A stretch of DNA of 64,000 nucleotides from Cladochytrium replicatum (Eukaryota; Chytridiomycota; Chytridiomycetes; Cladochytriales; Cladochytriaceae), in contig JAHLKD010000056.1 of the NCBI GenBank assembly GCA_025526935.1, positions 286,035 to 350,034 of the forward strand, read 5' to 3'. Of this stretch, positions 7,801-64,000 are shown in pieces (position 1 is the first letter of the stretch; each line of letters opens with the position of its first letter). Under the pieces are notes generated by a model. The model was not told the origin of the DNA, did no database searches, and saw nothing but the letters and a program-made list of their open reading frames with translations. The position numbers and the translations under genes are program-made.

Positions 7801-9407
7801 TTGATCCTCCATCAACTCTTCTAAAATATCGGAATCGGTGACAATGTGCATCATCTCAAGAAAGATTTCTGCGCCATCATGATCCGAAAAGCGATTGCTA
7901 TCGCTCGTGTCCAATGGGAACCATTCCTTTCTGTATTTGTTCGGTGGAAGCATCGAGAGTGGTACAAATGCTGAGCCAATACGCTCGTCACGAAGGACTC
8001 GAGTGTCATAGATGTCAATCACGACTCCATTAACTGCTGCTCCGGCAGCTGCGTGACCCGGAGTGATTTTGAACCCAAATTGAAAATCCTCTACCCACAT
8101 GGGATTGGATTCAGCTTTGACTTTCCGCGTGGGGGCATTTTCTCTTCCACACAGAATGTTACAATAAAAACCTGCCATATAATGTCAAACTCAGCAATGC
8201 TAATCGTTGCAGCCAATTTACCAGTTGCATTCGCCATTGGCAACCGTCGTGCTTCAACAACTGTTTTTGAAGATCAACTTAGCGTCAATTTAGAGGGTCA
8301 TAGTAGTGTTCTAACCTTTGACATATACGCTCTGTGGAGAATTTGCTCCTTTCTTCGTGGGTTCCTTTTTGTCTGGTGTTCCTGCATTCGCGATGCTGGC
8401 CTGCCTCGCCTTTGGCGCAACCGGTGTTCCAGCAGCGCTCCCAGCATCAAGAGCTTCCAAACTTTCGAAGTCTTCCACAGCGGGCTGGTCAGCCACAGCA
8501 TAAATGATAAACTGGTTGAGAATCAGGGTCTGCCACTTTCTCCACAAGAGGTTCAAGAACGCTAGTGGCTAAAATCTCTCGGATGAAAGCAGAGACAGCC
8601 GGATTGGCTCGATGAACCGGAGAAAGCACACGGTCAGCGATGTGGCGGGCAAGATCGCGAAGGTGCGTGCGAATCTTGACGGGGTTATTGTGGCGATGGA
8701 ATGAAGATGAAGGATGCGAGCCAAATAAGTTTTGATGAAGTTGCTTCAAATTCTTTATATTCACGCTACAGAAGTTGTTTGGCTCATCGTGGCTGGATAT
8801 CAATCGAAACATATCACTTACCATGTGAAGCACGATAGTATTGAAGATAGGCAGAGCTGTTGTTGGGATGTTTGTGTTATTCCCATAGTATCCTAGCCGG
8901 ACCATAGCACTCTTGATTGCAGAAAACACCAAATCCGTGAACTCTGTCGTTTTCGATACGTTCAGGTTGTCCCACCAATTATTGATGTAGTCGCGGATTA
9001 GCAGGTTCAACATTCGATCAAGTTGCTCGTCAATTGCTGGAGATACCGGAAGTGGGCTTGGATCAGCCTTCAAATAAGTAGTTAGCACCGTTCGAACATA
9101 AATCGGCATCCAGACTCACCAACTCCACAGGAAGGTCGTCCTTAATGGTCAGCAATGACGAGAATAATGAGCTCCTTCGTCTTCCGGAGAGCAGGGCCCG
9201 TCTCACCTGTCCATCTTCCATAGACCCTAAACTCCACAGATATCCAGCTCCAACGCACAGACCCACCAGCGCAATCCAAGCAAATACCCGCGGAAACAGA
9301 ACGAGCGCTGCTAAAACATAAGCCGCATATGATAGCTGGCCAGGAGGTGTGGTGAGAATGGTCTGTCTTACTGAACAGTACGTTGTCCAGTTGCAGACGC
9401 TCCCCAT
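4818..9407 (-). CDS. PXA-C2-PX-Nexin_C sorting nexin (Mdm1/SNX13-like)
   Basis: Predicted membrane-anchored lipid-binding protein of the Mdm1/SNX13-SNX25 family, which acts at ER-endolysosome contacts. From ATG 9407: a hydrophobic N-terminal segment (exon 9407-9120); a PXA domain from 9067 (LLIRDYINNWWDNL) that ends at FIIYAVADQPAV; a C2 domain across about 8360-7840 (VVEARRLP...GFYCNILCG...NPMWVEDFQF, IYDTRVLRDERIG); a disordered Ser/Pro-rich stretch with two short internal repeats (7690-7755 and 6455-6525); a PX domain at about 6330-5900 (VTRRYVDF); and a Nexin_C domain at the 3' end (SMWPDGVCY, LNRHLVCMILD). The domain order makes one gene, although three joins are unresolved: near 8740-8822, 7600-7800 and 5720-5840. 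At about 8519 the frame shifts by one base inside a conserved PXA stretch. An alternative upstream ATG at 9480 is out of frame. Confidence 0.82.
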
Positions 9408-9858
9408 ATCGCTTGATGCCGTTCGGGAGTCGGTTCCATAAGGCGATCGTCGTTTCAGAAATCAGAGAGACAGTCACCATGAGAATTTGTGCAGAGAATG
9501 GAGTTTGTTTAGGTTCGGGGTAAGGGAGGGAGGTATCGGAAATCGAGGAGAGCGGAGACGCCAGCTCCTGCTCCGTCGTGCCATGCGGTGCACTCTTTGC
9601 TGAAATCCGAGATGTCCAAGGTTCTTGCTAAGCAGTTCTGGATCGTCGGCAATGATGAGCCAACTGGAAGGTTGATCTCCAGCACAGCTTTGAGTGGTGT
9701 TCTTTGCCGCCTTTTTCTCGGACTATTCAAACCAATGAGGGCTACAGATCTCACGCCTGGCCCATTCGAGTATCGAGCAGTAGTTCCCCACACAAATTGG
9801 CTGGTGATTGCATTTAAAAGATAGCATTTCAAAAATTGAGAATTTCTGTCGTTTTTAT
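9408..9858. other. Spacer between sorting nexin and RPC1
   Basis: About 450 bp. It contains the 5' region of the sorting-nexin gene and the 3' flank of the polymerase gene. Open frames of 78-117 codons exist on both strands but match nothing I know and overlap each other. Confidence 0.4.
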
Positions 9859-15131
<5,273 letters not shown>

Positions 15132-15302
15132 CCCAGATGATTATCCGCTGTACTTTAAAGTGTTCTCATGTCGGTCCTTCCTTACACTCGCTTCGGTGCT
15201 GCGTCTACTACAGGCTTCTTCATTTTGGAGGCCGAGCAACTGCACGTGATGTCAAACTGGGCCTGGGAATGGGGAATGTTCCGCTATGGGCCAAAGAATG
15301 TA

Positions 15303-17431: not shown

Positions 17432-20400
17432 TCATTTGCACCGAATACAGAACCATTCGGAATCACCCAATGCGTCGGCAGTCAGCAAACCCACACATCG
17501 CCCATGGAACCACTTTGCGCAACTATCGCACGCCACCATGAAACTCCCGTCGTCCATGTGCGCCTTTTCCGGCGCGCAGATGCACTGTATCTCTGGGTCG
17601 TAGACGCTGACCACCGCTGCCGGAGGAGCCGGTGGGAGAGCTGAGGGGGCACCAGGTGGAGCGGGTGGGAGTGCGAGATCATGGTGAGTTGTTGCGGCGG
17701 TCCCGTTTCCGACGCGTTTGCCGTTCGTTGCTGGGGACCGCGCCGTTGCAATAGAGAGCTTCAGTTTGATCTTTGGTTTCTCGGGAGCTGCTGTGAGTGC
17801 TACTGGAGTTTGTGTTGAAGGTGGTTTTGGATCGTTGGGTATGATTGGAGTTTGGGAAGATTGTCGGGTCGAGACAGCGGAGGGTCGAGGAAGGGGAAAG
17901 GTAGGTGGGACCTGCGGCTCCACAGGGGACATGGGGTCAGACGACGCACGGCCGTTCACTTTTTCGATTTTCACAATGTCGCTTTCGGTCCACGAACTCG
18001 TTGCCAATGGCGAGGCGGCTCGCACAGGTGACGCCGCTCGAGCTGGTGAAGCTGCCCGTGCTAATGAAGCGGGAACACTGTGCGTCACACTCTGAACAGG
18101 TGACTCGTTCCTCTTTGGCTTCTTTCCTTTGGCTTTCTCCTCTTTGTCTTTACCCTTTTCGCTTCCCGCGGAAGAATTCAGCCTCAACACGACTGGTCGT
18201 GCTTTAGGCTCCGTGGAATCTCCTGATGATGCTGAAGAATGATGGTACAATGATTGTTGCTGTTGTGTCTCAACCCCAAAGAACCCAAGCAGCTGAGGAA
18301 CGACGGTTGAGAGCATAGTCCCAATGGCCCCTTCTGTCCCGCCTGACCCTCTGAACAAAGTGTCTGATTCTGAAAGAGTGGGGCCGGGCACAAAGGTTGC
18401 AGACCTGTAATGCATCAGCTTAAGCGCAGTCTGCTCGGATACAATTGGACGGTCCACCTTTCGAGACGCAGCTATCTTCCCGTCTGTGTGATTTGCCTTC
18501 CTTGACCCATCTTCGTTGTTGTCATCAGACGTGTGGGAAGATAGCTGCGCTTTGAGGCAACCCGGCTGCAAGAAATTTGGACCTAACGGCCCTGAATCTG
18601 CTTTGGGGGGAACGGAAGAGCTGAGTGCATTGGCGAACAGATAGGAGAGCTGTGAAGGGCGCAGGTCTCGTTCATGTGCGGGAGCTATAGAAGCAATCGT
18701 CAAGCCATCAGGACCCCAGTTTCCCTCATCAATCAACAATTCATGGTCCGAAGACGATGGCCCTTCGCTCTCCTTCGTCGAATCTACTTCCAATGACTCA
18801 TCGGTTGAACTCTTTTTCAGTAACCGCTCCGAAGAATCGTTGTTGGCGACAGCTACATCCCTACGCTTCCTCAACAACTTTGACTGATCCAAAGGAACAG
18901 TTTCCTCGAACGGTGTGATTGAAATTGTGGTTTTCCGCCGTTTCTTGTCGGCAACATCCTTTTCCGCAACTGCCCCACTCTCTGCTTTTCGCTTTGTCGA
19001 AGCAATACCACCGCTTGTCGACTTCAACATTTCACTTGGTGACTTGGCATGATCAGAGAATGGTGGAGGTTTTTGAGATGATCCTGATGACGGAGTCGAT
19101 GTTTCATTGCTGGAAGGTTCACTCGAAATGGTTTTGCAAACAGGGAATGGCGGGAAGTGATCGGGAACGAATTGAGGACGATTTGTCTTGTCTAAGACAT
19201 CTTCAGCACATTAAATATGAAGCCCGGATGATATAAATACCGGAGGGTTGCGACTTGGAAGCGTGAGGGCTACTCCCCGGATTCTTTTTCGGCGGCTTCA
19301 GCTCGCCCGTTTCTGTGGTGGGAAAATAAACGTGGTGGACAGAGTGGTGAAAAAGATCGCTTTGAAAAGCCAAAACATGTTGAAGTTTTGGGCAACCAAT
19401 ATGGTGCAAAGCATGGCAAAAAGCAGAATTTAACGCAATTGGTCATTGACAGTAAGAGTCACTGAGATCACTCAGCCTGAGATTTGCAATAATGAGAGTA
19501 GCGAGTAGAAATAACCGGCAAAAAGGAGCGGAACTTGAACAATCAAGGCTTCGAAACAAAATCTATGAAAATAAGAAGGTTACTTACTGAGTGGGAAATC
19601 ACCAGGTTCCAATCTCGGAAATGCCGCCGCACCTGATGCCTGTACAATCTTTGCTGTTCGAATCGCCGATGCACCGGTGGGCATACCGCTTCCGCTCAGC
19701 ATCCCCAAACCGTCCCCAATAGCCTCGCTCGCCGCATTGGCAGCTTTCTCCCTGTTGACAATCCAAAGCCTCGCAAAGTCTGCCATCGAAACAGTATCGG
19801 CTCCCATTTCATCAAGTGCAAACGCAACATCTTCAAGTTGTATTGTTACCCTGCATGATTGTTCCGCAAGCGCTTTTGTTTTTGTGCATAGTAGAGCCAG
19901 GTATCGTTCAAAGATGTCTGCGAGAACCGCGCAAGTCGATACGTGAGCACGATCGAAACCAGTGAGTGAAACCAAGTGTGAGACGGCAATGATTGAAAGA
20001 TGATCCGCAAAACCCTCTGAGCCCCGAGAGCTCGTCAACGCTGTTGGGGGGAGAGGTGGTGGTCCAGGTATAGATTGCGATGGACTGGGGCCGGATTGAT
20101 GTGAAGCATTCGGTAGGTAAGGGAAATTCAAATTTTGTGGGATCAAGGGTCGCGGAAAACTCAGTGCCCCGGGCGCACCAGGCTGTAATGGAAATGGCAG
20201 ACCCATTCCCATCGGGAAAGGAACAGGAGGCCGATTGGCCATTCCAGGCAGATGTGGGAAACCTGCACTGAAGCCGTACGGAAATCCGAGAGGCAGAGGA
20301 AACGAGGGAAACTGGTTTGCAAAAGGTGGTGGAGCGGTTTGCGACATTGGTGGAAGAGGCGGCACATTGAGAACCGGGGGGAATCCGGAAGGTGGAAAAG

Positions 20401-20587
20401 GTGAGTTGAAAAGCGGCGGTAATGGCATCAATTGCGGCGCTGCCGATCCGGCACCTGGAGGCCTGTTACTTCCTACACCACCACCGACAGCACCCAAATC
20501 CTGCTGAGGGGGACGCATTTGCATTGCCGCAAGATATTGAGCAGCGATAGCAGAGACCGTCGGGGGAGGGTTAGTTAGGGTCGCCAT
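17432..20587 (-). CDS. TAF3: TFIID subunit TAF3 (histone fold plus PHD finger)
   Basis: Transcription initiation factor TFIID subunit 3. Three exons give an open gene of 946 codons: 20587-19588, 19312-19241 and 19200-17432. An N-terminal Pro-rich low-complexity region (residues 1 to about 190) precedes a Bromo_TP histone fold (HLSIIAVSHLVSLTGFDRAHVS...LEDVAFALDEMG), which pairs with TAF10 in known TFIID. The exon 2/3 join creates the family signature FVPDHFPPFP. A long acidic and Ser/Pro/Lys-rich disordered middle follows. The last ~50 residues are a C4HC3 PHD finger (CIC...CDSC-x-KWFHGRC...CIRC), with the Trp expected for binding methylated H3K4. Yeast TAF3 lacks the PHD, while animals keep it. 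Confidence 0.92.
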
Positions 20588-21291
20588 CGTCGATGGGACC
20601 CACGCACGCAGCCCCCGCGCTTAATTGGTATTCAGGGTCTGTTGCTTGTACGAAATTCGAAATGTAGTCTGAGGCGAATAGTCGGTTCTGTGCGAGGAGC
20701 TTGGATCTCTCAGTTCGATGGATCCCGGAAGTAAAACGTCCTCAAGGCGTGCGTGGCTCTTCAAAGTTGCAGCGAGTGATACTAAGTCGTCCAGCTCCAG
20801 CGATCTTCTCAGCAGCACCAGCACCACGGCAGACAGTCGCGGGTCGCTCTGGATTTGGGTTTGGGGGTCTTTTTGTGTGGTGTGGCAGTGCGGGTGATGG
20901 ACACTTGACAAAACTAAAAACAGGGGAGAAATGAGCGGAGGGGGAGGGCGGGAGGGCGGGAGTGCAGCTGGAGAGAACTTGTAGCCGTATCTGGAGCAAA
21001 GGGGGCCATTTTGAGGGGAAATCTCACTTTTGGCAAATATCTAGAGTTTCTGTATTTAATTCTTATTGTTATTCTACAGTGGAGCACAATGCTAGTAAAA
21101 GCACTAGAGTAGCCGAAGTCTTGTTCAGAGCTTTAGGTTCAGTTGTGTGTGTGTTGTGGGTGTGTCGGTGTGTGTGTGTGTGTATGTGTGTGTGTGTGTG
21201 CAGGGATGAACTGACCGACTGGAGAAGTCAAACAATGATACCTGCACAAAGATCAACATCACTGTTAGGAATCCTGGTTTTTATCCATAGA
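20588..21291. other. TAF3 upstream region with GT repeat and G-rich tract
   Basis: About 700 bp. It should hold the TAF3 promoter and the 3' flank of the small membrane-protein gene. It contains a G-run tract (GGGGGAGGGCGGGAGGGCGG at about 20940-20959) that could form a G-quadruplex, and a (TG)n microsatellite. A 96-codon minus-strand frame (20621-20911) is open but unrecognised; I do not call it a gene. Confidence 0.5.
21143..21200. repeat. (TG)n microsatellite
   Basis: About 58 bp of imperfect TG dinucleotide repeat with a few interruptions. Confidence 0.95.
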
Positions 21292-21621
21292 TTATATCAT
21301 ACTTTTGCTGGCATTGTTTTGTTGTGATGGTGTTGCTTTCGTTGCGGTACTTGCTGGGGACAGCCCTGCATCTGATTTTTGTGCACTTATTCTTATCTCC
21401 ATCGTCCCTTTGGCGATCGCGAGCTCCTCCCTCCAACTCCGCAACTCGTCCTCGAGCTTCACCCGTCGTGCCCCGCTCACGAACTTGTAATCCTCAAAGC
21501 TTCCTCGCACTTCGCGCAGCTGTATAGCAACCGATGCGAGCCCCAGCCAGAGCAGAATCTGCGGTGCGCTCACGACCAGGCTCCTCCCCATGCCCTTCAC
21601 AAAGTCCCAACTTCTTCCCAT
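21292..21621 (-). CDS. Small single-pass membrane protein, unidentified
   Basis: 109 codons from the ATG at 21621. The protein has a short basic N-terminus (MGRSWDFVKGMGRS), one hydrophobic segment (VVSAPQILLWLGLASVAIQL, about residues 16-35), a charged helical stretch (KLEDELRSWREELAIAKG) and a polar tail. The size and layout resemble small mitochondrial inner-membrane or ER proteins, but I recognise no family. The frame stays open about 57 codons further upstream, but that part overlaps the ALG14 coding region on the other strand. The ATG at 21621 is preferred because it leaves a 33-bp gap to the ALG14 start. Probably a real gene: it is conserved-looking, and shares a divergent promoter with ALG14. 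Confidence 0.6.
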   Translation of the reverse strand: MGRSWDFVKGMGRSLVVSAPQILLWLGLASVAIQLREVRGSFEDYKFVSGARRVKLEDELRSWREELAIAKGTMEIRISAQKSDAGLSPASTATKATPSQQNNASKSMI

Positions 21622-21654
21622 CGTCGTTGACCTAGGGGTGTGGCTTTCTGCTTG

Positions 21655-22549
21655 ATGTCCGTCGTGTGGGTGACTCTGTGGGTGCTGACTCTCGTCGCGA
21701 GAGCTGCGTACTTTGTCCTGCCAAGATTCGTACGAAAACGCTCCCGCAATGCTAAGAGGTTCGATGCGAATCAGTCTAGGAAATCCACGCAACTGTGGAT
21801 CGTTCTGGGTTCAGGTACTTCGGTGATGATTGCCCGAAATCATCATGTCTAAAGAATTTAGGTGGACACACGACTGAGATGCTTCGAATGCTTCATACGC
21901 TCCCCATCCGTCGCTTCCAGAATCGTCGCTACTTGATTGCCCAAACAGACTCCATCAGCGCAACAAAGGCAATTGAATTCGAACGTGCTGTGACAGAGAA
22001 AGAGCTTCCGAAGCAGTCGAAGAAATCCAGATCCCCACCTGCAGGAAACAATAGCGGATCTTTTGAAATTCTTCGAGTTCCGCGGTCTCGTGAAGTGGGT
22101 CAGTCTTGGGTGTCAACAGTCATTACGACGGTTCTGGCATTCTTCCGAATCATGGCGATGATGACCGCACTCCCTGATATGGTCAGTCTTGGATTGGAGT
22201 AAAGAGAATTTTAAACCGAGTCCTGATCCGAATCCACACTGTAGATCATCTGCAATGGGCCTGGAACGTGCATTCCAGTAATCTACGCAGCGTTTCTCCT
22301 ACGAGTAAAGAGCTACTATAAAACTTTATTTCCACTATTTCTTGCTCAACGAGCCCTTTGTAGGTATTTGGAATCAAACATATCAAGGTCATATTTGTAG
22401 AAACATACGCCCGTGTACGCAAGTTGTCGTTGTCTGGCATCTTGGCCTATCCCTTTGTCGACCGATTCCTCGTCCAATGGGAGTATTTGGCTTCGCCGAC
22501 AACATATCCATGGATGCCTCAGATTGAATATCTCGGACGGCTCGTTTAG
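21655..22549 (+). CDS. ALG14: UDP-GlcNAc transferase subunit ALG14
   Basis: Membrane anchor subunit of the UDP-GlcNAc:GlcNAc-PP-dolichol transferase. It recruits catalytic ALG13 to the cytosolic face of the ER for the second step of N-glycan assembly. Four exons (21655-21814, 21862-22181, 22245-22304, 22364-22549) give 241 residues, the usual family length. There is an N-terminal membrane segment (VWVTLWVLTLVARAAYFVL). Exon 1/2 splicing creates the GSGGHTTEMLRML motif. Then come the RSREVGQSW block, PDM joined to IICNGPGTCIPVIYAAFLL, VIFVETYARVRKLSLSG, and the C-terminal QWEYL. Everything expected is present. The frame extends upstream with a GTG codon at 21640; the ATG at 21655 is taken as start. 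Confidence 0.96.
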
Positions 22550-22757
22550 ATTATTACGCAATAGTCGTCAATTGCACACTTACGGCTGTATAGTCTATTT
22601 CAGTGGATCTACTTTTGAAAAAATACCTGAGATGATACTCCAATGGACAAAATAGAAAGAGAATAAAACAGGACTTCTAGGAGCTCGGCCATATGCTGCA
22701 ATATACACAACCGCCCCCAAAAGTCACTGAAGATGCTCATTGTTTTCCTACTCTACG

Positions 22758-23658
22758 TTAAACGAAACCTTGTCCCTCACGTTTTTCTTCACGAAAACGC
22801 CCCAGCGCTTCTCCATAATACTGCTGCCCGCGCGAGTTCGGGTACCGCATCACGAGGTACTTGTCCTCTTTCAGCTCCCCAGAGAACGTGAACACCGGCG
22901 CTCCGAGCTGGATTTGCTCGGGAGTGGGCTTTACGCCGCGCTGGGGCAAGAAGTCACCCTGAATTTTGTGGCGGAGTTATAGCCGACCGTTGCGATTGGA
23001 TTAGCGTTGACAGAGATATTGTAGAGTTCGCGAGAGCCTTTGGAAGGCAAGTCGTTGAACTGTTTGGTGAGTTCTCCAGCAATGAGTCGCTGTGGGGTGA
23101 CAAAGATATCTCCTTTACACCCACAACCGACGATCTATTGTCATAGATCGTAATGTGCCTTTGTGAAAAAGAGAGATGCTGTAGCTCGTTTCATACCTTT
23201 TGGAGTCCCACTGTTTCAAGTTGACATTAAAGATTTCCATTCCGCACTTTTGTTTTTACGATCTGAATCTTCTTCGCTTTCAACGCTCCGGTCTGGAATA
23301 TCACAGTAAACTTCAGCCTCGACGTGAGACTGAACATATTCTGAGGGTTCCTCTGCATCACTTGCTGTATAGTGGTGTTTTGCGCTGGCTTCAGCTTCAT
23401 TGACCGACCTTCGTCGTCCGGCATTGTTTGGAACCCGGGCCCTATTTTCGGGTTATTTAGTTCTCTTTCTATCTTTTTGTGCTGCTCGTAGATTTGATTC
23501 TCGATCTGCCTCGTCTCCTCTTCGAACTGACGCTGGTATGGATCGATCACGGGACTGTTGATGACGGGTATTCTCGACTTTAGCATGTGAAGCTCTTCCG
23601 CGAACTTTCGTTGCTCCGGAAGCTGCCTTTGCTCCGAGTTTCTCGGTCTGTAAGACAT
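22758..23658 (-). CDS. Uncharacterised charged protein, gene model incomplete
   Basis: The minus-strand reading from ATG 23658 (MSYRPRNSEQRQLPEQRKFA...) is a helical, charged stretch (EEETRQIENQIYEQHKKIEREL), followed by a more structured region. After at least one intron comes a segment with FVTPQRLIAGELTKQFNDL and NISVNANPIATVGYNSATK. The end (VFTFSGELKEDKYLVMRYPN...EEKREGQGFV, stop at 22758) is in another frame, reached across a one-base shift near 22970 with no plausible intron. I do not recognise the family. It could be the 3' part of the gene described at 23700-26030. It is convergent with ALG14. Confidence 0.45.
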
Positions 23659-23699
23659 ATTCAGTCGGCGATCCTAGAAATGGTTGTTTTCTCTTGAAA

Positions 23700-26030
23700 C
23701 GTAAAAAGCTTGGGGCCGGGTTTTTGTTTTTGAGTCCTGAGGACTGATTTTCGTTCAAGATATGGACGATAACAGAGAATTCGGCACTTGCTGAAGCTGT
23801 AGTTGGTACATTGGTGGAGGAATTAGTGACTGAAGTCGAATAGATCGAGGAGGTGGGGAATAAGGAGTCTGAAATGAAGGGGCAGTCAGAGGGTGGACAG
23901 GAGATGCTCGAGCGAAGGACAATCAAGATCTGTGTTTTCACACTGATGTCTTGCTGAAGCGAAAAAGACTATTCAAAACCAAGAACTTAAGCAAAAAGGA
24001 AAATTTGGATCCTTACGCTCGACCGGACCATTTGGATCATCGCCTTCTTCAATGTAATCCTTTCCCAGTTGGATGCAATCTCGAGCGGGCTCGGACACGT
24101 TCCCCGCTGGACTTCACCGCGCTCCATTGAACTATCCTCCACTTTGACTTCCAATGTCTTGGATGAAAACCTGGGCAGCAAACGTCTTAACAGTTACTTT
24201 ACATTCCATTATATATGTCGGTTTTGTTATACCTGTCATTTTCCTCCCACACTTCCATGTGATTACTCGATACCACTTGCGACGGGAACGCTTTGGATCG
24301 TTCATGATTCTCTGTGTTTCACCTTCCGGTTGCGCAAGCCCAAGTTGAGGTGGCACAAGTCAAACGTGCCGTTCAGAGGAATCAAAAATGATTTGTGGTG
24401 CCGGGGGAGGTCTCGCGTCGATCGGTCTGCTGATTGACGCAGCTTCTTTGCTTTTGTTCGAGTTAAGCATGGGACGTTGGAGGCTCAGATGACTCCGAGC
24501 TGTGCGTCTGAGATTGTTTGCTTTTGTGGACTCGCAAATCTTCCCATGGAGTGCGATGGCCCCATTGCATTGTGTGAATCAACAGGTGCAGGCTCTTTCG
24601 CGATGTCATTTTTCTCTTGTGCGTTCGGGCACATCACATCTTGGCGCACAGGGAGCGCGGGTACGGGATGAATCTCTGGAGCCTTTTCAGGTGCAGAAGC
24701 ACCCGCATTCTGCTTCACAGTGGGCCGTTTTTTCAAAGATGAAGCCGATGCCGCGATCTCGGCGCTCTTTGTCTCAAACTCTTCGCTTCTTGCTGAACGC
24801 CAAAACCAGTTTCCCCACCGGTGTTCCGAGGCCCGGCGACGTCCCATCAGGCGATTGGGAAAGCGAGGCGGATCTGTGATGGGAGATGGAAAAGCGTCGT
24901 CACATTGATTTGCCGCAGAGACTTATTGGATCTGAATGGAGGAGGGCTGACGAATGGGGAAGCATTCTCTGGAGTTCTGGCCCTCCAAGGACTTGACGAC
25001 GCTGCTCCTTCGGAGCTTTCTGCCAGGACATCGTCTTTTGAATGCTCTTTGCGCCAATCTTTACCTCTTACAGGTTTTCTCATACTATTTATTGGTGGGT
25101 TGCGGTCCAGCGTGAGAGATTTTACCAAGCCGGCTGAGTGAACGTTTTCTGAGACAGCGTCATTACGAGATTTCGTCGCGTCAGTGGAGGAAGCATGCTC
25201 TAAGGCTATCTCTGTACGAGACGATTATTTGATAAGACGACAAGTTAATTTTTTTGGGGAGGGGCGACATACCTACCTTCGTAGGTTTGAGGATTATTTA
25301 TCTCGCAGCCAGTTCCCTTATGAGAGCTAACCGTTGTATTGCGACCGACTTCCTGACTGTGCGAGTCGACCGGGCAAAAAGTTTATAGCCATAGAGGTTC
25401 GCTTAAAGACCATTACAGTGGCCGCAGCAACGGCCGCTGAAGTTGAGGTTTCTCCCACAGTGATCCGACCTTCGAGTTCCTCGTTGCTTGGCGCTCCCCC
25501 ATGATCCTTCCGCTCATTCTGAGCGTCCACGTCCACCATTCTGATGAGCCTCTCTACGTACGTCTTTTACCGAGAACTTGACCGCAGACAGTAGCTTGAG
25601 AATGCAGAAGGGGACGTTGAACTGGCTCGCCTTCATGTCCGCAGCGGCCGCCGTGGTGATCTGCTCGACGATTCGCGACATCTCGTCCACGGAAATATGG
25701 ATCTCTGTTTGAATTCCGTTCAAATTGGACTCCAGAGATGCGCAGAGCAACCTCATGGAGCTCCACTGCTCCGGTAGGGACTTTCCGATATCCGGGTTTG
25801 GAGAGTGCGCCAGGTTTGTCAGCACACGGATGGACTGCAATCGCGCAGATGCTTTGTTTTCTGGTTTATTGTTTTAATGGCAAGCTGGTGCATCTCGGAA
25901 ATGTGCCTAACTATGAGAACGAGCTTCTGTGCTTCTGACGCCAGCTGATCCAACAGGTTGTTTAGCAAGACAGTGTGCCGACTTAGCCGGTTGTCGGGGT
26001 CATTTATCTTCCGGTGATCCGATGATCACA
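23700..26030 (-). CDS. Uncharacterised multi-exon gene, boundaries unresolved
   Basis: Several minus-strand open pieces join plausibly. At about 26010-25570 there is a helical domain (LLNNLLDQLASEAQKLVLI; SMRLLCASLESNLNGIQTEI; SRIVEQITTAAAADMKASQF). A 43-bp GTACGT..AG intron follows, then Ser/Thr-rich sequence. A piece with EINNPQTYE joined to EIALEHASSTDATKS spans about 25310-25130. A disordered Pro/Ser/Lys-rich exon covers 25128-24485. Last is an exon pair across a 62-bp intron, with MEVWEEND joined to RFSSKTLEVKVEDSSMERGE (about 24270-24015). No domain is recognised. Start, end and some joins are uncertain; frames change at places where no good splice site is seen. Confidence 0.35.
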
Positions 26031-26643
26031 AAGGATCACATGAAAGCAACACGTTTCCCACATAAGAAGTTTGGTTTGAGGGAACTGACCTTTTTTTTGG
26101 CATTCGCGTTGTTGTTTTATTTCTTTTTCTTTCCTGCACTGCTAAACAAAAATGTTTTAAGAATGTTGAAGTTTCTACAAAAAAAGGTGGAAATATGTGG
26201 TCCATTGGAGGTGAACACAACAAGAACACGCACTCAAGGGGATACAAAAATAGAGCCCAACGGGCACATACATATCAACAAAGCGAAGCAGATCAAGATC
26301 CTTCGAGTCTAGCAGAAACTGAAAACCCTGGGTATTAAAAAAAACGACCGTGTGTAAAGTAGAGAAGGAAGAAAAGGCGTGCTGGTGAGTGAGAAAGGGG
26401 ACGAGTGATAAGTGAACTAAACGAAGCAAGGAGAGTGGAGGAAGGTCGACTCCGAACGGGGAAGGAAATGAAAAAAAAGACGATCACAGAACCATAGGTG
26501 ACCGTATGAAAAATCCCTGTTGTCAGCAGGTATTTGACGAATTTGGTGTGCTCCGTCGATACAATCCCACTCGCGGTGGACACTCCCTCCTCAGCAAAGA
26601 TAATCCATTGATCCATGCTCAAAAATATTGAAAGAGACTGTCC
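26031..26643. other. Spacer, no gene seen
   Basis: About 600 bp, A/T-rich in places, lying between the 3' end of the LIM-RhoGAP gene and the 5' side of the unidentified gene. The open frames here carry no recognisable sequence. Confidence 0.5.
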
Positions 26644-53651: not shown

Positions 53652-55390
53652 CTATGGCATATCCCACTCGGCACTTCTCCCCATCCCCGACGCTCTAGAT
53701 CCGCTTTCTCGATCCCTTCTTAGTGGCCACATCAACAATCGTTTCTTTTTTCTTTGTTCCGCTTCAAGATCTGTTACCAACTGCCTGAGTGCAATCTTGT
53801 CGCGTCGTATTATGGCATTGGTGGCTCCCAGCTCCAAAAGCTCGCGTTCGAGATCCATGATCTTGAGTCTGCTCCCCGCAACAACACGTTCCAAGTCTGC
53901 CAGATTGTAGTTTGGCATATTCTCATCAGCGTTCTCCACATTAGCGTTTGGTCCAGCTGCTCCAGAGGCTTCATTCGCCGCTGCGGTTTGGCCAACCGGT
54001 CAAATAGCATTGATCCTACTGCTACCGCTACTCAAACCGGTGCTTTTCGCAACGTTGTACCGAACGACTGCGCTGTTAAGCTCGCTCAGCTCATCAAATA
54101 GCACTGATGGCGGCACATCGCCCAACTGAGTGGCAGAGTAGCTTCCCTTTCGTTGGAGCACGGCGGTCGAAATTCCTGAACTGGATGCACCGGTTGCAGC
54201 AGATAGATGTCGGATGCGCCCTGCTTGCGATCCTGCCGCCCACGCCGCAGCTCTTTTGAGCCTGTCCATCTATTTCTTCAACGTCGAATGCTCAGCCCGC
54301 TCCTTTTCGAGTTCTTCGGTCAAAGAACTGACTGCAGCCGGATCGTTCGAGTTCAAAATCCAAGTTAGCCAACTCGTCAACTTTCTCCTGGATCCAGTCC
54401 TCAAGTGTACGAACGCGACGGAGACGTCGAACGGAATCCACATTCACACTCTTCACCAGTTCGAAATCCGCAAGGTCTTGCTTTAGTGCAGCCAGTTGGT
54501 TCTCATATAAGCTGATCGAGGCTTTAGCGGCTTCAAGCTCAGATCTGAGTTCCTCAACAGCTGTCATCCGCTCTTCGAGAGTCTTCCTCTCGGCTTCTTC
54601 ATTGACAGGAGTCAGAGGCGATAAGCCTGCTGGTCCAAGTGACCTTGCTTTCGTGCGTACTGTTTGCGAACCCCGTTAAGAGCAGGTTGTGTCCAACAGA
54701 AGACTCTAGCTGACGAATGCGCTCCTCGCGTTGCTCGGCTGCACGTTCCATATCAGCAACAAGCAACTTCAACAAATCTAAATGCGTCGTGGATTGCACA
54801 AGCTGTCGTGCAGCGGAGCACGTTTGCCCATCGCAATACATTACCACGTCGTGATCGGCTTGAGTAGGAACGATCTCTTCCGCTACATCTGCAACATTCT
54901 CCTGAATGCTAGTTGACCGCTAAATTTCAATCTCTGCCTCCAATCGTTCCAGTGCTTCATGCAGACCGACGTTTTGGAGGGTCAGATATTCAACTGTGCA
55001 CATGAGTTCCTCTGCAAGCAGCAATCGTTAAATGACTGAGCTTTGGCCAGCCGTCAACTCGTGCACTGGTAACGCTTCCGGTTCTTCCGGTTCGACATCC
55101 TTCTGAGCACTGAGATCAACAATCATTCTTTGCAACTCTTCGATTTCAAGTGTATATCGCTCAACTTCAGACTCAAGGTCCTTTATCCGTGCGTTTCCAG
55201 CAGTTTCCAGCTCTGTCGTCAAGGATTTAAGCGGGTCATCCAAGCTGTTGATCAAATCAGTCTTCTGTTCAAGCTGTTCTTTAAGATTGCTGCAGTCCCT
55301 GATGGCAGATTTGGATTGTGTGGGAAGGTTCGCAGTTGTAGCAGCAAAAGCGGCATCAAAAGCGGCATCCACGTCATTTTTCGCTGCCTA
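53652..55390 (-). pseudogene. Coiled-coil protein gene, interrupted
   Basis: A chain of minus-strand open pieces encodes coiled coil throughout: SNLKEQLEQKTDLINSLDDP and LEIEELQRMIVDLSAQ (55372-55028), LTLQNVGLHEALERLEAEIE, LLVADMERAAEQREERIRQL (about 54740), ELRSELEAAKASISLYENQL (about 54530), and DLERVVAGSRLKIMDLEREL (about 53890). In-frame stops (TAA 55028, TAG about 54920, TGA 54000) and frame changes separate them. Some could be removed by introns, but the candidate splice sites are poor compared with the strong donors in neighbouring genes. It is read as a broken gene, or one needing a transcript to resolve. The family is unknown; the sequence is typical of cytoskeletal or golgin-like rods. 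Confidence 0.45.
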
Positions 55391-55415
55391 ACAGTTATTC
55401 CAAGCCGGAATGTTA

Positions 55416-55612
55416 ATAACATTCGGACGGACCGTCCGACGCGAATTTATTAAATGCGGACGGACCGTCCACCTCGAATTTATCAGCCACGGACGGACCG
55501 TCCAACGCGTTTTTATTAGCCACGGACGGACCGTCCAACGCGTTTTTATTAGGCGCGGATGGACCGTCCAACCCATTTTTATTAACCATGGACGGACCTT
55601 CCAGATGCAATT
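55416..55612. repeat. 33-bp minisatellite with palindromic core (six units)
   Basis: Six units of exactly 33 bp; the core begins at 55425, 55458, 55491, 55524, 55557 and 55590. Each core is GGACGG-A-CCGTCC, an inverted repeat with a one-base centre, and units 5 and 6 carry single substitutions. Between cores lies A/T-rich sequence with TTTATTA. Because the period is 11 codons, both strands remain open, and on the minus strand this reads as a repeated NKNALDGPSVA-type peptide. It lies directly upstream of the broken coiled-coil gene. Confidence 0.95.
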
Positions 55613-56030
55613 TATTCTGCTTCAACTGTAATTCATGCTATCTCAATCTCTCTTGTAGGTGGATTTTTCACTAAGTCTTTTCATTTCATGGGTTAGGCGA
55701 TGATGCTGTTGGGAGAGACTCCTTTGATTTCGTGGGCTAGAGCATGCTACTGGTGTAGAGAACTGATTCTTTGTATTTGTTTGTCCAAAATCTCCACCAA
55801 CCATACACCTTGATAACAAGCTTCTCTGCCACCCCGGGGGTTATCAGGGCAAGACCTGGCCACAGGGTCTTCCTGCTATAGATAGTGGATCTCAACTTCC
55901 TCTCCGGCCATACCACAGCTTCTACCGCTGCTATTAGTGCAACTTCCACTCTCGTCAAAGCTAGTCAACAATCTGAAGTATGCTCTCACACGGTACAGTA
56001 TACACTAGGTGCTCATGGTCCTACCGTTAG
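55613..56030. other. Spacer left of the helicase gene
   Basis: About 420 bp. It should contain the helicase-gene promoter or the left boundary of the element. I found no convincing terminal inverted repeat, target-site duplication or telomeric repeat. Confidence 0.4.
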
Positions 56031-59000
56031 ATGCAATCTAGCAGCAGTGATGTTTCTGCAATGGACTGCAATGAGTTTGTTCAACCAGGTATCACTGAAA
56101 CCACTCCTAAATCTGCCCCTGGTGAGCTTCTCACTACATGTGAACATACCCAATCTCGACCTTTCTCACTAAAGGGCTCATGTTTTTTGAGTAGCCGGGC
56201 CAATCTCGATCATGTCCATGTTAGACCAGCTGAGCAACCGCATCAAGGAACCCAGGATGGAGTGGATCACCAGGGAAGATGGCATGCTCGTGTGCACGCT
56301 TTGCACTGGCAAGGACCACAGGGAATACAAGGAGAGAGATGCTTTGAGGAAGCATTGTCGAGCTTCCCATCCCGCCAAGGAAGGGTTGGGCACCAATCCT
56401 AGAGTTCATACAGAGGAGTTCCTACGCGACGCGTTCGAGGTTGCGGGCCTCCCGGCTGCTGGCCAAGAAGGGGTTGACATGGTTCTTCGCATTCTGCAAG
56501 GCACTGTCAAGAGAGATAAGAACAGCCTCAACAATGACAGTTACGAAGAGGACCTCGCCAACGTACGTGTAGCACCCCTTCACAATGAGAACCCTGTGAA
56601 CAACCCTCTGATTCAGAGCGCCATAGCTACAGGAAACCTTAGGCGTAAGCTTCCTTCATCAGGACTGCTGAAAGCATCTCACCTCTATCATTTCCTATCC
56701 TCCAGGCATAGCCTTGGATTTCTTCATAGCAGAAGAGTTTGGTGTGCTGGTTTGTATCAGCTGTGGCATTCTCGTGGACGGGTCTTCATGCGGGGCCCAT
56801 GTCCAAAAGTACCACAGTCAGGTCGACAGGAGCACCCGCCTGATTGCTTCAAGAGCACTTTTGAATCTAAACGTGGTTAACCAGCTTACACCGCTGTGGA
56901 ACAACAAGGTCATTCTGGAGCGTATAGACAGAGACAACAACAAGCTTGCCTCATTTACCCCAATCCCAGGAGTCTGTGTACAGGATGGTTTTCAGTGCCG
57001 AGGCTGCGGCTATGTGTGTGGCACCTTATCTACCTTTCAAAAGCATTGTTGCAAGTCCAATCCAGCAGCAAGAGGTACCTCTCCAAAGCAGGTCAAAGTC
57101 CAGAGTATTGTCATGCCGTACTATGGACTTCACGGTTACTGGGTCGTGCAAATGGCTCCTCTGGCACCCTATTCCCCTGATCCATCCTTGCAGCTCACTG
57201 AAATGCAGAAGGCAAGCCTGCAGTTGCTGCTTGCTGACGCATTCACCTCTGTCCCTGCCTTGAAGCTATCTGAAGAGCTTCCTCCCTGGATTCTTGGTTG
57301 CGACTTTCACCATGTGGATCCTAGGCACAGGAGCGGCCAAAAGATCAACGAGCGCATCACGTGGAAAGATGTTGTCGGGGAACAAAACCAGGACATTGGC
57401 CTGGGGTTCAACCGCAAGGAGCTGGGGAAGACTATGGTTGCCTACCACAAGGCACTGCAATCACGGATCATGCGAATGCCCTTCATGGTCAGGCAGGAAA
57501 TCATGAAGCCCAGGTTTGATCAGGAGCAGCAAGTCAACGAGAAGCAGAAATTCCGACAGCTTCGGGACGCAACACTGTCACGCTATGCACAGACATGGAC
57601 CTGTGTTCTGTGGCTGATGATCTTGGTGTGGAAGCGCATTATAGAGACACCCTTTGTGCAGATCAGCAGCTCATTGGGAGCATCTTTGGAGCAGTTTGCA
57701 AGAATGTTGAAGCAGAAGGTTGGAAACTCTGGACCTGAAGAACCAACAGGAATACCACTGTTTGATCCAGTAGGGGATCAGGGGCTAGACGTGGCACAGC
57801 TGCTGTCTGGCGACACCAATCATGAGGACGAGGTGGACTCTGAAGAAAGCTCCAGTGAGTCAGGCGACGAGGATCAGGAAAGTCCGGTGGGGCCAACACA
57901 TCTTCTCCCTGTTGGATCTGCGGCAGAGACAGGAGAAGAACTTTTTGCAGCTCTGCTTGCTGTTACAGAGTCTCTCTTCCAAGCAGAAACTGTCATATCA
58001 ACCATCCCCGAAAAGGTGTTCAACAATCCCCTTTTCACCTGGTGGGTGATTGATTCGAGAGATGTGCTGGGGGCCTGGAGACCTGCCAACAGCGTGTCCA
58101 GAACCGGAGCTGCATTACTCAGATGGGCGTATGTCACAGGTCTGCACCGGTTTTGGCAGGATTGCAAAGTAACTGGAAGTGTGGAGCCAGAACGTTTAAT
58201 GCAGATTGGACACTTTACCTCTCGCTTCAATAGGCACACAATGTCAGGGAGGATCGGGGTAACGTTAGCTTGGATCAAAAAGGTTGCCAGCCAGACAATT
58301 GCCACCAATCGCATGCAGTTTGACTCCCAGGCATGTGCGTACCTGCTGGCGAAGGATACATACTTCAATATGACCACCATAGGGCATGCTTACAGTACCT
58401 TAATCAGGGACCTCAGTCTACTCATGAAGAAGATCGCTTATCCTCTCCAGCCAGATCAAGAGACATGGTTAACTCTATCGTGGCTCATAGAAAATGCTCC
58501 CGATGTTACATGTGAGACAGCGTCAGACTATGAGTGGGCGCAACACACAACTCTCTCCAGTACGCACCTGCAGCCAGCTTTGGGAGGCATATTGGCATCC
58601 TGGGTTAGAAATATTGGGCCAGTGACGGATCACCATGATCTCTGGCAGCAGCATGGACAGCTGCTGGAATGGAACAAGAAGATTGCAGCAGCGGTTCTGC
58701 TTGGATGTGGAGCCCCGCCTCATCTCACGGACCTAGTTGGTCAGAATGCAGTCAATTCTTCTGCAGTTCCTCGCTCTGTTTATCATAAGAATGATCGTCT
58801 GGTGCTGGTGAGCTACCGGTGCAAGACAGAACAGATAAAGGAGGAGCAGACAGTGGTTCCGCGCTTTGTTCCAAGGTCACTGGAGAGGCTGCTCATCTTC
58901 CACCTCTTTATAGTGCGGAGGTTGCTGTTCAGTACATTCAAGTGGGTGCAGAAAAAGACATTCCCCGAAGAATGTAGGCGATCCTTGTTCCTGGGAAAGA

Positions 59001-62000
59001 ACGGGACATTGGAATGTTCAGATTTGTCTACTACCCTCACAGAGACTTTCCAGAGCATTCTTGGGGTGCGCGTGACATATGCCGAGTACCGTAGATTTGC
59101 GAGCAACTTTTCCCAGATTGACTCCCGACTAATGCCTGCACAAGTAAGCACGTTGCTAAGGAAAGGGGACATGGCGAACCTTGGAGAGGGCCATTCGTCA
59201 CACACAGCAGAGGCAATCTACAACCGAACAGGTTCAAGCATCCCTCAGCTTCTGGATGTAGTTGCAGCGGAGCGGCTGAGGATATGTGAGCACTGGTTCC
59301 AACGTTGCGGGATAGCAGATCAGGAACACGAGCAACTGGTCCCAGCAGTGACATCTCCAGAGGCAGTTCTCCGATCAGGGGACAGGTCCAATGTATCTGA
59401 GACAGTAAGAGATACGGCAAAGGTATCAGAGACGGAGACTGTGTTGGGGACCCTGACTGTGTCGGAGGTGTTGGAGACGGTGAATGTCCATGCCACATTC
59501 CGTGAAGATTTCCTAGCGAGTGGGGAGGATGCAGCAAGGGCAAATACTGTTCTGCAAGCCACGGAGCTACTTCGTACTTTTACTGGAAACCGATATGCAC
59601 ACTTCAGATCAGATTCCATCAGAGAGGCCATCTGCAAGAGTGAAAAACTACTCTACTGGTGTCACCAACTGGGTCTGGAAAGACCGTGGTACCGGCCATC
59701 CTGGCAGCGTTGAACACAGCAGTTCTGCATGTGCTGATATCTCCCCTACGAGCTGTTGCAGCGGAGATCAGAAAGCGACTGGAAGAGCTGCGGATTCCTT
59801 GTTACCTGTGGAGTGAAGTGAAAGCCCACAAGAACAAGCTGAACGCAATAGCTGGTCATCTGGGGCTACTGCTATGTCAAGTAGAGCAACTTGACAATCC
59901 CGGCCTGCTTTCCACAGAATTGGTCCAAATATGGGAGAACGGGAGGCTGGGGACAGTGATACTGGACGAATGTCATATTCTCCTCACCCAACGTCACTTC
60001 CGTGAGGCCATGACCAACGTCAGGGAATTTGTACACAAGTCAAAGTATGCTAGTCGACCACTCGGAAGTTGTCGCTTTTTGTATATGACAGCCACCATGC
60101 CTGTAGTTCTCCAGTCCGCATTCGAGCAACAGGTTGGCCTGGGCCGTGGAGAGCTGAGCGTTTGCAGGTCTCCGACCGACCGTCCCGAGTTGGCATATTT
60201 TGTTAAGAGTTGGCCATTAGCGGAAGTGTGCGAGTATGTACGGGCCACATGCCAGCGCACCATCATATATATTGCCAACGAAGAACAACAGGCTCAGATC
60301 AAGAGTTTGCTTCTGGGAGGACCCAGCGCCAAAGAAGCAGTTCCGACAAACATGCACCCGTGCTGTCATCATGGATCGAAAATGTCAGAACTGGACAGAA
60401 ATGTGGATCTGTGTCGATGGCTAGGCTGGGAAGGCCTAGATCAGGGGCGCGACCCTATTGCTGCAATGGCGGACATGTCAAGGGTGATGATAGCAACCAG
60501 TGGTTTGGGTGCAGCTCTGAATGTGGACGACGTTGGCCTTGTAGTTATTGTCAGTTGCTCTGGGATGATGGAGCTCAGTCAGATGGGGGGGAGGGCAGCA
60601 AAAAACGGTTCAGTTGGCATTGAGATCCTCATTCGGAATGAGGGGTTTATGCATGTACGCACCGAAGAAGAACTATCTCCCGACCGAGCTGCACTACTGG
60701 AGTACATGCAAACCAGTTCATGCTTGCGCAGAGCAAAGATCACATTCTTGGACGGAAACCCCAATGCACCCGAGTGTCGCAATTCCTGTGCGAAGCTGTG
60801 CGGAAACTGTGGCGGACAGTCCAACCTTTACCTAAAATTGGGGCAGCAACAGGAGACTCCACCTGGTCAGCAATACAGCGGTACCCTCTTTAGCAGCACA
60901 TCCTCCACAACCACCTCTACGCAATCGGACGTATCGCGCGTTCCAGAAACTCCGAGGATCATCAGGACACAAACTCCAAACTACTGGGACTCACCTACTC
61001 CACTATATGGGCCTCCTGGTGCAACGCAGCCTTTAGGGACTTATCACGAAAGACCCTTCCTGATCAAACCCATACCTAATAGGGGGCACATATCTCCAGG
61101 TAAGTGTTAGTTGAAAAGACAATAAGTTAACCACTAAGGGTTATTGGCAAAATTTGCACTCAGACTCATTCTCGGGCCATCATTTTGGCAAACAACGGTC
61201 ATCTTCCAGCTCATACACCTTGAAGAACCAGAAGGATTATGAAGAGAGTCCATCTTCTAGCTCATACACCATGAAGAACCAGATGGATTATGAAGAGAAT
61301 CCATCTGGTCTGTCTCTGAAAAGGCCAAAGGTTTGGATCCCCGTTTTGACATGTATGTTATACTTCGCCTGATCATCTTTCAAGTAGTTGCTTCAGCACT
61401 CCTCTGTTAAGTCAGATTGGTCTTGGTCACACCCGGAGGATGGTTCAGTTCAGTGGCTTCCAGCGGATGTTGGGAGCACCCAGTCAAAGTGGAGGACCTT
61501 TACTACAGAACACAAACCTAATGATTTCCAGGTAGATATGGGTTTGTCACTGTCACAGCAAAATCCACACCCTAAGGTCTTTCGGCCATCTGCAAACCCA
61601 TTACCTGCTGTCTCCACAGCTTCAGTCATCCCACACCTTAAGAGAGACTTCACAGCTCTATACCATAGCATCTTCAACCGTAGTAGGTGTATTGTGTGTG
61701 AGACTTTCCAAGGTTTCCCCTGTGGTTGCCAGAATGCGGTGCAGACTGTTGCAAGTTCCTCAGCAACACGGCGTGACCATCGTTGCTGGGTCTGCGGAGA
61801 ACCGGGACATCGTCGGTCTGACTGTGCTGCAAAGAAGGCGTTAGACAACTTCGCAAAATTCCGACCTAACCAGTTATGCATCTACTGTCTCCTGCGGCGG
61901 ACACAACAGCATCATTCCTCAAACGAACCGTTCTGCACCACGGACAATAAACGAGCCGCTCTTCACTGCTATTGTCGTCTCCACTACGAAAGCGCCAAGA

Positions 62001-62206
62001 GTAATGACGTTTCGTCCTGGCTGAAGCGGAGATATAGGAGTCAAGAGGTAGTAGATGCTTTGAGGCAGTTAGACAGTTGGGTTGAGTGGGGTATCCAGAC
62101 CTACAGTATTCACGATTTTAGCAACAAGTGCAACATAGCTGGTGGGAATATATGTCGGGCACTTGTTCTGGTGTTCGATATACTTCTTTCAGAGGAGGGC
62201 TGTTAG
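56031..62206 (+). CDS. Very large zinc-finger/RecQ-like helicase gene (telomere-linked-helicase type)
   Basis: Exons 56031-56121, 56195-56644, 56706-61099, 61164-61330 and 61388-62206, about 1,973 codons if one -1 step is taken at about 59642-59648. In order: C2H2-like fingers (CTLC...HCRASH, about residues 64-85; CISC...HVQKYH; CRGCGYVCG...KHC); a long middle region (about 840-1020) with integrase-like features; a RecQ-type helicase with SPTGSGKT (about 1167), DECH (about 1268), MTATMP, MIATSGLGAALNVDDVGLVV, QMGGRAAKNG (about 1473) and a RecQ zinc site (CLRRAK...CRNSCAKLCGNC); a Ser/Tyr-rich linker with two KNQ-x-DYEE repeats; and a zinc knuckle CWVCGEPGHRRSDC with a Cys/His-rich tail. This layout is known from large fungal subtelomeric helicases. 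The helicase motifs look intact apart from an Arg to Lys change in motif VI. Confidence 0.85.
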
Positions 62207-62366
62207 ATTGTTATCTGTGGCAATGTAGAATTTCAACAAAATCGTAATTTACCCTGTGGCGATCTATGTCAATAACAAGCTTAGAATAGAGGAGGATCAG
62301 GTTAGATATAGACAGCTGTATTTAATGACCAAGCAAATTGTCCACGATATTTAACTGCCTCCACAA

Positions 62367-63993
62367 CTAAGTGTTTTCTTCTGTGTTTAAAAAGACACCT
62401 TTGTGCATTTTGAATACAAGGCACACCCGGAATTCGCGTGGGCTAGTTCCCCACTTCTCCAGCATATGTTCAAGGGCGCATGATCTGATGAAAAGAATGT
62501 CACCACTCTTGAAAGGAATCTTAACTCCGAGATCAGGAAGCACGGTCCTCCCACCCTTGAATCTGCCAAAGCACACCATCGCACACCAACCATCTGGAAT
62601 GTCCTTGAGATCCCGGTGTCGGACTATCCATTGATTGAGAACAACCACAAGCATTGCAAAAGTCTTGTTCGTATGGTTGTCCCAGAGTAATTTGCCGCTA
62701 GGGTTCAGCCTCCCCATCGCCGCACTGTACCGCCCCGCCATATCTGGGTCAAGGCGCCTGAATAATGCCTGGACAGTCTCAGCGAGGTCAAGAATATGTT
62801 GGTGGCGTAAGAACTCAACAACCGCATCTGTTTTTCCGCTGCTGCCGGGGAATGTTTCAGCGGAGGTACCGATGTCACCTCCAGGGGCACCTCCCGTTGG
62901 CTGCCACACACCAAGGTGGTAAACGCCGTTGTGAGTGGGTTGCAGATCCCAATTGACATGCCGATTGTCCTTTGCTGACTTAACAGGCGGATATTTTTCC
63001 ACGAACTTTTCAACGGTGCTGGTGATTCCCGGTGCCAGAGCAGAAACAGCGTTCGGAACCCAAAAGAACAATCTACGGCCCGTGCAGTCGACACCCTGAA
63101 GAGGCGCAAGCGGTCGGTGATCCCCCATCCGCGACGTGACATCAATGTAGTCCTCTGCCTCCTTAAGGTCGAGCAAATACGCCTCTTCCGCTGTGAGTTG
63201 TGGTTTCAGGTGTGTGTTGGGTTGTCTGGCTGTAGGTCTAGAAGCGAGGTCCTGCAGCTTGACCCGGAAGCGCAATTCCAGGGTTCTCTCACGTACATCC
63301 TTCAGAAGAGCATCTTGCCGCTCAACAGATAGGTCAGTTGCCGAGGGGATACTGAAGAAGAGTCGTTGTGCAGGGGTCAGTTCCGGGGTAACAACATCAA
63401 TCTGAGTAAATGCAAAAACAGTTAATAGGGGGACATACTGAAAGTATGTTCCATACAGAGGTACTCGGGGCTGCAAGCACTGCCTGGGGTATCGCTGGAA
63501 CGACGTTGTCCGCTGCAAGTTTATGTGCAAGGTGCTCAAACTTGGATCGACAGGAAGCCTGCGCATATTCATGAAGTCAACATGTCAGTACCACTCCTTG
63601 GACGGCTTAAGTCTGCCGGGGGTACCTTTTTTGAGTACTTTATGTTTCCCAACTCCCAGGCACGTTGAAAATTGAAACTTTCCTGCTTGTCAAAAATAGA
63701 GATGGGTTTCATGACAGAATGATTAGAAAAAAGCCCATACCGAAGGTACCGAAGGTTTTCGTGTTTGAAACGCTAGGGAACTTGGGACTGCTTGGTGTCC
63801 CATCTCTGCCGGTGACCCAGACGCATGCTGATAGGTAGGAGAATCAGCAGCACAGGAAGCACCAATTTCCGAACCCAAGTGTTCCAAGACAGTAACCCCC
63901 TCCATATCAATCGCTTGTGTCTGAAAAACAGTGTTGGTAATGGTCCCATACGAAAGGAAAAATCATATTAACCCTTTCACTGGATTGCTCCAT
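62367..63993 (-). CDS. TET/JBP-type 2-oxoglutarate/Fe(II) dioxygenase
   Basis: Predicted nucleic-acid-base oxygenase (5-methylcytosine or thymine oxidation). Five exons (63993-63973, 63920-63741, 63682-63626, 63558-63439, 63401-62367) stay in frame and give 470 residues. The C-terminal double-stranded beta-helix holds the iron site HRD (388-390) in QWIVRHRDLKD, then FGRFKGGRTVLPDLGVKIPF, GDILFIRSCALEHML with the distal His (438), and the 2-oxoglutarate-binding Arg in REFRVCLVF. The wording matches the fungal TET/JBP family. The N-terminal half has PTHNGVYHLGVWQPTGG and a helical region. The frame is open to 63572 without splicing, but the spliced version has far more protein-like sequence (SKFEHLAHKLAADNVVPAIP). 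The true first exon could lie beyond the window. It is convergent with the helicase gene, 160 bp apart. Confidence 0.85.
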
Positions 63994-64000
63994 GCGGACA

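Follow-up and report, generated by a model that had tools for sequence, protein, structure and literature searches.

In Cladochytrium replicatum, a helicase gene and a TET/JBP-type oxygenase gene face each other at the right-hand end of a 64,000-nucleotide stretch of contig JAHLKD010000056.1 (positions 286,035 to 350,034; hereafter the window, numbered from its first letter). Frame list, Pfam and NCBIfam confirm that both genes are real and convergent, with frame ends at 62206 and 62367 and 160 bases between them, as the original prediction had described. The host genome (50.5 Mb, 198 contigs) holds many copies of the unit that carries them, mostly at contig ends, with a fixed inner end that begins in half a telomere unit and an outer end that varies from copy to copy. 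We favor, with confidence and doubt about evenly balanced, the reading that the two genes are part of a mobile element which multiplies by joining itself to exposed chromosome ends. For selfish DNA, this might be a novel means of capping chromosomes.

A multi-copy unit with a fixed inner end

Searching the genome with the 8-kb stretch that holds the pair returned at least 26 matches on at least 22 contigs, all at 99-100% identity; these counts are lower bounds, with 22 of 134 candidates scored. Protein searches matched the helicase core 62 times and the oxygenase 49 times. Dropping the 13 weakest matches to the helicase (E of 2.4e-10 or worse), keeping all oxygenase matches and merging neighbors left 38 helicase and 34 oxygenase loci. 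A convergent helicase lies within 4 kb at 28 of the 34 oxygenase loci, and the spacing of the matched parts is exactly 1263 bases in 17 of these pairs, 1253-1283 in nine, 977 in one and 421 in one. The six unpaired oxygenase loci comprise one on C47, with the same arrangement and the helicase 6.5 kb off, and five fragments that are 30-75 residues long; among the ten helicase loci without oxygenase, that on C61 is cut by telomere repeats and that on C174 by the contig end. The claim that the oxygenase travels with the helicase is thus upheld, and within this genome neither a constant separation of the two genes nor a fixed single-copy locus, the outcomes named in advance as refuting it, was found. 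Oxygenase relatives in the protein search came only from C. replicatum (two) and Geranomyces (five). The helicase search, with the best 8000 candidates scored, gave 12 proteins and none from Geranomyces, so the pairing is established within C. replicatum only.

The original prediction had the unit start at 56031. The convergent pair does lie within the unit, but the start belongs at 55387, from where the element runs on the plus strand to the final base of both contig and window (55387..64000, 99.8% identical to the copy on contig C11 over 8.6 kb); with the contig stopping at 64000, the outer part is missing and the unit incomplete. Its fixed inner end (55387..55401, +) reads CCTAAC followed by AGTTATTCC, a telomere C-strand half-unit plus nine conserved bases. 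Copies aligned to that on C11 share the start C(1-3)TAAC followed by AGTTATTCC, and break off at a wide variety of positions. A genome-wide count gave 164 occurrences of the inner-end 14-mer and none of its reversed control; a 17-base form with up to two mismatches occurs 198 times, against 14 for the control. Since a search with the end sequence favors intact ends, a second search used an anchor that lies about 565 bases into the element. Among 19 anchored copies, the exact 14-mer stood upstream in 16 and a form with one substitution in two, and an N run lay beside the remaining one; the inner end is therefore kept in 18 of 18 assessable copies that bear the anchor. In the C61 copy, similarity is lost about 1 kb inside the element.

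At the other end, telomere repeats directly adjoin the truncated element on C82, C183, C86 and C61, and on C5 they come after an inserted long terminal repeat (LTR)-type element. This insertion, Gypsy-like by reading of its frame, lies inside the C5 unit copy (L029/L030, bases 7800-15300 of the joined stretch) and is shortened, with telomere repeats as its cap. No copy with two defined ends was seen, most sites having been read around the inner end only, and outer ends differ among the aligned copies. The host telomere repeat is a 10-base unit, TTAGGGTTAG, rather than plain TTAGGG (for example L008:9013-9132, L009:4-93 and L026:2-121); a three-unit pattern gave 662 hits, overlapping within arrays, and none in the control. 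A telomerase domain is encoded on C47. The open literature searched held no paper on Cladochytrium replicatum and telomeres, and the titles listed for TTAGGGTTAG as a word deal with telomere proteins of humans or yeast, among other topics.

Of the 164 inner-end sites, 69 were read with at least 25 bases of flank each, drawn mainly from the first 100 in contig order plus additional loci. In the comparison of flanks, which the original prediction had proposed for filled and empty sites, all 69 differ. The element points outward and lies within 25 kb of a contig end at 59 of these sites, and copies stack on truncated older copies, mostly outward. The idea of a mobile or subtelomeric element accordingly stands as far as copy number and terminal position go, while filled and empty sites with two defined ends were not seen. 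Only a handful of bases separate two of the flanks on C86, which probably reflect one tandem duplication.

The joints hold a telomere half-unit. Across 70 joints (one with a very short flank), TAAC is preceded by one C in nine, two in 37, three in 22 and four in two. An unbroken relative, often an older element copy, was found for 41 of the 69 flanks, and the alignment reaches the joint exactly in 36, the other five ending some bases short and being excluded. Comparison of the unbroken flank with the element's CTAAC at these 36 joints shows CT or CTA in common in 29, C alone in six and no shared base in one; at random positions, CT or more is shared in 6.1%. If the preceding flank Cs are counted toward a CCCTAAC end, every one of the 36 joints has an overlap of 2-4 nt. 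Two genome sites keep one extra telomere half-unit (a 20-base form). In the outward direction, the end has the sequence of the telomere C-strand; a template with the terminus ...CTGTTAGG(G)-3' would therefore pair with a chromosome broken at CCT-3' and not with the telomere overhang.

Just inside the element lie a near-perfect palindrome, GAATGTTA-A-TAACATTC (55408..55424), which could form a hairpin, and a 33-bp minisatellite with GGACGGACCGTCC palindromes in 5.8 copies (55424..55616, Tandem Repeats Finder). The last ~40 bases of the inner end are nearly invariant in 24 aligned copies, and the adjacent minisatellite varies. In two copies the predicted RNA fold of the end lies far below that of shuffled sequences (z -5.2 and -4.6), a signal to which the palindromic minisatellite adds; in a diverged relative with no more than the terminal 14 bases conserved, it is weak (z -1.8). 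This relative (L028:382) retains CTAACAGTTATTCC and continues into other sequence, for which a separate hairpin is predicted at the corresponding position. Covariation in the hairpin was not seen in the 24-copy alignment, where it is not demonstrable because the end is nearly invariant.

Gene content and CpG footprint

The helicase gene (56212..62206, +; public model P0008) spans several frames, at 56212-56880, 56714-59713, 59659-61110 and 61388-62206, which are presumably joined as exons. Pfam places OrsD in 56714-59710 (E 5.4e-12), a DEAD helicase in 59659-61107 (E 2.2e-12) and a CCHC knuckle in 61388-62203, all on the plus strand; the NCBIfam model recQ_fam matches at E 2.3e-8 with a score under its cut-off of 219.8 bits. 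The DEAD and recQ_fam matches give the protein the RecQ-like core of telomere-linked helicases (TLHs). An OrsD-helicase protein of Flammula is 23% identical to it over 455 aa. The public model is 1744 aa long, and its 90% cluster has 23 members. One single-base gap splits the window's helicase frame relative to the C11 copy, where the frame is open for 1479 codons. At 60500-60630 the window copy has GGRAAKNG, against GGRAARNG in P0008 and in the copy on C5; we take this region to be helicase motif VI. Lower-identity helicase proteins such as P0014 were considered as diverged lineages and dropped, P0014 looking like a misjoined model of a near-identical copy.

The oxygenase gene (62367..63572, -) matches Tet_JBP in 62370-63572 (-) at E 3.8e-8 and 33.2 bits, just under the Pfam cut-off of 34.9. 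A six-frame genome search marked 15 of 22 Tet_JBP matches as over the cut-off, including that of the window at 34.9 bits. H319, D321 and H369 are invariant in seven sequences, preserving the HxD motif and distal H of the TET/JBP profile. Structure prediction from the seven-sequence alignment gave no confident fold (mean pLDDT 32.5), PDB sequence searches with oxygenase and helicase core returned no match, and one scan of viral contigs found no relatives of the oxygenase, which differs too little between copies for its pN/pS to be listed.

A mutational footprint bears on what the oxygenase might act on. Outside the minisatellite, the element has a CpG observed/expected ratio of 0.575, whereas eleven 5-kb blocks of host sequence in the window range from 0.89 to 1.02; the distal subtelomere has 0.56. 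In older copies at eight loci, transitions from the C11 state fall on 85 of 1578 CpG positions and on 70 of 10097 other C or G positions (odds ratio 8.2; p 1.8e-34, ignoring shared ancestry). CpG depletion and CpG-biased decay suggest that the element is methylated, and the genome contains five cytosine methyltransferase matches. Together these give the oxygenase a plausible substrate in the presumably methylated element, and the earlier proposal that the enzyme may oxidize bases to regulate or protect the element gains indirect support from sequence.

Beyond the oxygenase, the window holds the start of further minus-strand sequence (63573..64000, -), whose counterpart on C11 contains frames; the public model P0002 fuses some of these to the oxygenase. 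The C11 element extends at least 15 kb from its inner end, backed by C192 (97.5%), and about 20 kb to the telomere. Its minus-strand frames gave nothing over cut-off in Pfam (seven frames) or NCBIfam (five of these), and the protein search found no relative of a 325-aa outer-module frame at E <= 0.01. In a second subfamily, the inner 540 bases (~85% identical) are joined directly to the outer module, without the helicase-oxygenase part; its loci include L003, L012, L016, L020, L023 and L035. On the chromosome side of the window's joint lies a sequence (55028..55386) with a minus-strand frame (55028-55372) that the element has apparently cut off.

Proposed mechanism and its alternatives

In the scheme that we favor, the 3' end of an eroded chromosome (...CCT-3') would anneal to the 3' end of a template, ...AACTGTTAGG(G), which is telomere G-strand sequence, and would be extended outward over kilobases along that template, either RNA or DNA. 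An RNA template would be a minus-strand RNA ending ...CUGUUAGG at the inner end. The remnant left by later erosion would then be capped by telomerase or by the next copy. Judging from their families, the helicase could open chromosome ends or the template, and the oxygenase could oxidize methylcytosine on the element and so weaken silencing by CpG methylation.

Such end-primed copying predicts the fixed inner end, the variable outer end, the outward stacking and the sharing at the joint. Almost as good a fit comes from free linear DNA, a linear plasmid or minichromosome whose left end would begin at CTAACAGTT and finish in about one telomere unit, and which would be joined to broken chromosomes through microhomology while its right telomere serves as the cap. 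The 2-4 nt overlaps are typical of microhomology end-joining, and the extra half-unit at two sites and the lack of a reverse transcriptase (RT) in the scanned frames would suit it as well. End-joining usually trims, however, and the inner end is intact in 18 of 18 assessable copies; moreover, a longer telomere tract at the joint is never seen, the 20-base form occurs only twice, and no free form is visible in the assembly, in which no direct search for one was made. We regard this alternative as possible but doubtful and prefer end-primed copying because the inner end is uneroded in every assessable copy.

The remaining explanations fare less well. A DNA transposon or Helitron relative could insert at CCT and always lose its outer end at chromosome ends. 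The CCT preference would be natural for it, Helitrons have a hairpin near their end, and a possible one lies near the end of the element. DNA transposons and Helitrons of fungi are known to carry TET/JBP genes, according to the available text of PMC12730594. But Pfam detected no transposase, Rep/HUH or Helitron domain in the 12 frames scanned, the only Helitron_like_N match of the genome is internal (C19:272963) and a two-ended copy was not seen, and we consider this origin very unlikely. We judge it equally improbable that recombination between ends has spread an ordinary subtelomeric repeat with a helicase, of the kind seen in fungal TLH regions or yeast Y': terminal position, near-identical copies and a TLH-like helicase are what this model predicts, but recombination would copy the joint together with its flank and does not predict CT at the joint. 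Joints and flanks common to copies, as in Y', were not found among the 69 sites read, with the C86 pair alone near-identical. Collapsed or chimeric contig ends would account for the many copies that stop there, for the single-base gap in the window and for the N run beside one read copy, but the telomere arrays after several copies, the distinct flanks and CT sharing far above chance make an assembly artifact scarcely credible.

Several observations weigh against end-primed copying as we describe it. No RT or other polymerase was found by Pfam in the 12 frames scanned, a set that leaves out short frames and takes the outer end from few copies; the genome has no fewer than 150 matches to RVT_1, a few of which lie 10 kb or less from a contig end, and an RT encoded elsewhere in the genome might be the driver. 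The helicase would lie antisense to the supposed RNA template, and Rfam returned no hammerhead or other ribozyme at E<=1 for the one inner end submitted (L010). The complete 36 of 36 overlap assumes that the template carries CC before CTAAC. Ten of the 69 sites are not both terminal and outward: four on C1, three on C53 and one each on C3, C60 and C70. On C1 telomere repeats adjoin a copy (L032:8-57), C60 has a short interstitial run of telomere sequence (L067, C60:18050-18480) and on C53 copies face each other (C53:116291-132404); these exceptions look like end-to-end chromosome fusions or scaffold joins made by the assembler. Those on C3 (C3:476840, L034) and C70 (C70:78519, L070) are single mutated inner ends far inside contigs. 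As for the gene functions, the LTR-type insertion is equally CpG-depleted (0.596), so the footprint is not element-specific, and the outer module is not depleted (0.88; L009, C11 reverse-complement 20286-26500). Purifying selection is not demonstrable between copies, with pN/pS of 0.3 to 2.4 on few changes.

Comparison with known systems

The behavior of the element is reminiscent of Terminons, the Athena Penelope-like elements of bdelloid rotifers, which in the available text of PMC6431247 and PMC5537684 attach to chromosome ends by a fixed inner end, are often truncated at the outer end beside telomere repeats, form head-to-tail arrays, and are large units with accessory genes and telomere-like bases at the attaching end. 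A fixed inner and a variable outer end at chromosome ends are found here too. Terminons, as described there, encode RT and have, besides a hammerhead motif, repeats rich in C whose pairing partner is the G-rich overhang, whereas the element showed neither RT nor ribozyme in the searches given above. Its end is also opposite in sense: the strand corresponding to that of Terminons (PMC6431247, in the portion available) ends GTTAG(GG), in G-strand sense, and fits CCT-3' ends. HeT-A and TART have terminal position in common with it (PMC5537684, same portion). FoTeRs, telomeric non-LTR retrotransposons, are likewise terminal, with truncated copies outnumbering full ones and telomere-linked helicases co-occurring, but the accessible part of PMC12857005 gives them an encoded RT and several adjoining telomere repeats, in contrast to the half-unit joint of an element in which no RT was found.

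Fungal TLH regions resemble the element in that a RecQ-like helicase occurs in many near-identical, often truncated copies at chromosome ends, as far as PMC7473861 and PMC12857005 could be consulted; the element does so on at least 22 contigs, with 59 of 69 inner ends terminal and outward. It differs in having the helicase beside a TET/JBP oxygenase, an inner end that is precise, and no two flanks alike among the sites read, and the sections available of those two papers describe no such precise inner joints and leave the role of telomere-linked helicases open. The TET/JBP-bearing fungal DNA transposons of Kojima 2025 (PMC12730594) are also selfish DNA with a TET/JBP gene, probably directed against methylation silencing. 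The carriers there are DDE transposons and Helitrons of Basidiomycota and Ascomycota, and the text obtained contains no mention of chytrids, Cladochytrium or Geranomyces, with "telomer-" only in a reference title. Neither DDE transposase nor HUH Rep turned up in the 12 frames of the element.

The element thus combines terminal-element behavior with a TLH-type helicase but departs from Terminons in RT, end sense and ribozyme, and from TET-bearing transposons in that neither transposase nor Rep was found in the frames scanned. Tentatively, it may represent a new class of selfish DNA that heals broken ends without an RT of its own, in which the telomere half-unit would be a 2-4 nt landing sequence for CCT ends, the TLH-type helicase a mobility gene, and the TET/JBP oxygenase a shield of the element or the adjacent telomere from methylation silencing. 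If this were true, a helicase acting as mobility gene would explain why TLH-type helicases populate fungal chromosome ends. The place of the helicase in a unit that seems to attach repeatedly and precisely makes a role in attachment testable. The joints would record chromosome-end breakage and healing in an early-branching fungus. Set beside the transposons and Helitrons, the element would be a different kind of TET/JBP carrier, one that places a base-oxidizing enzyme at chromosome ends.

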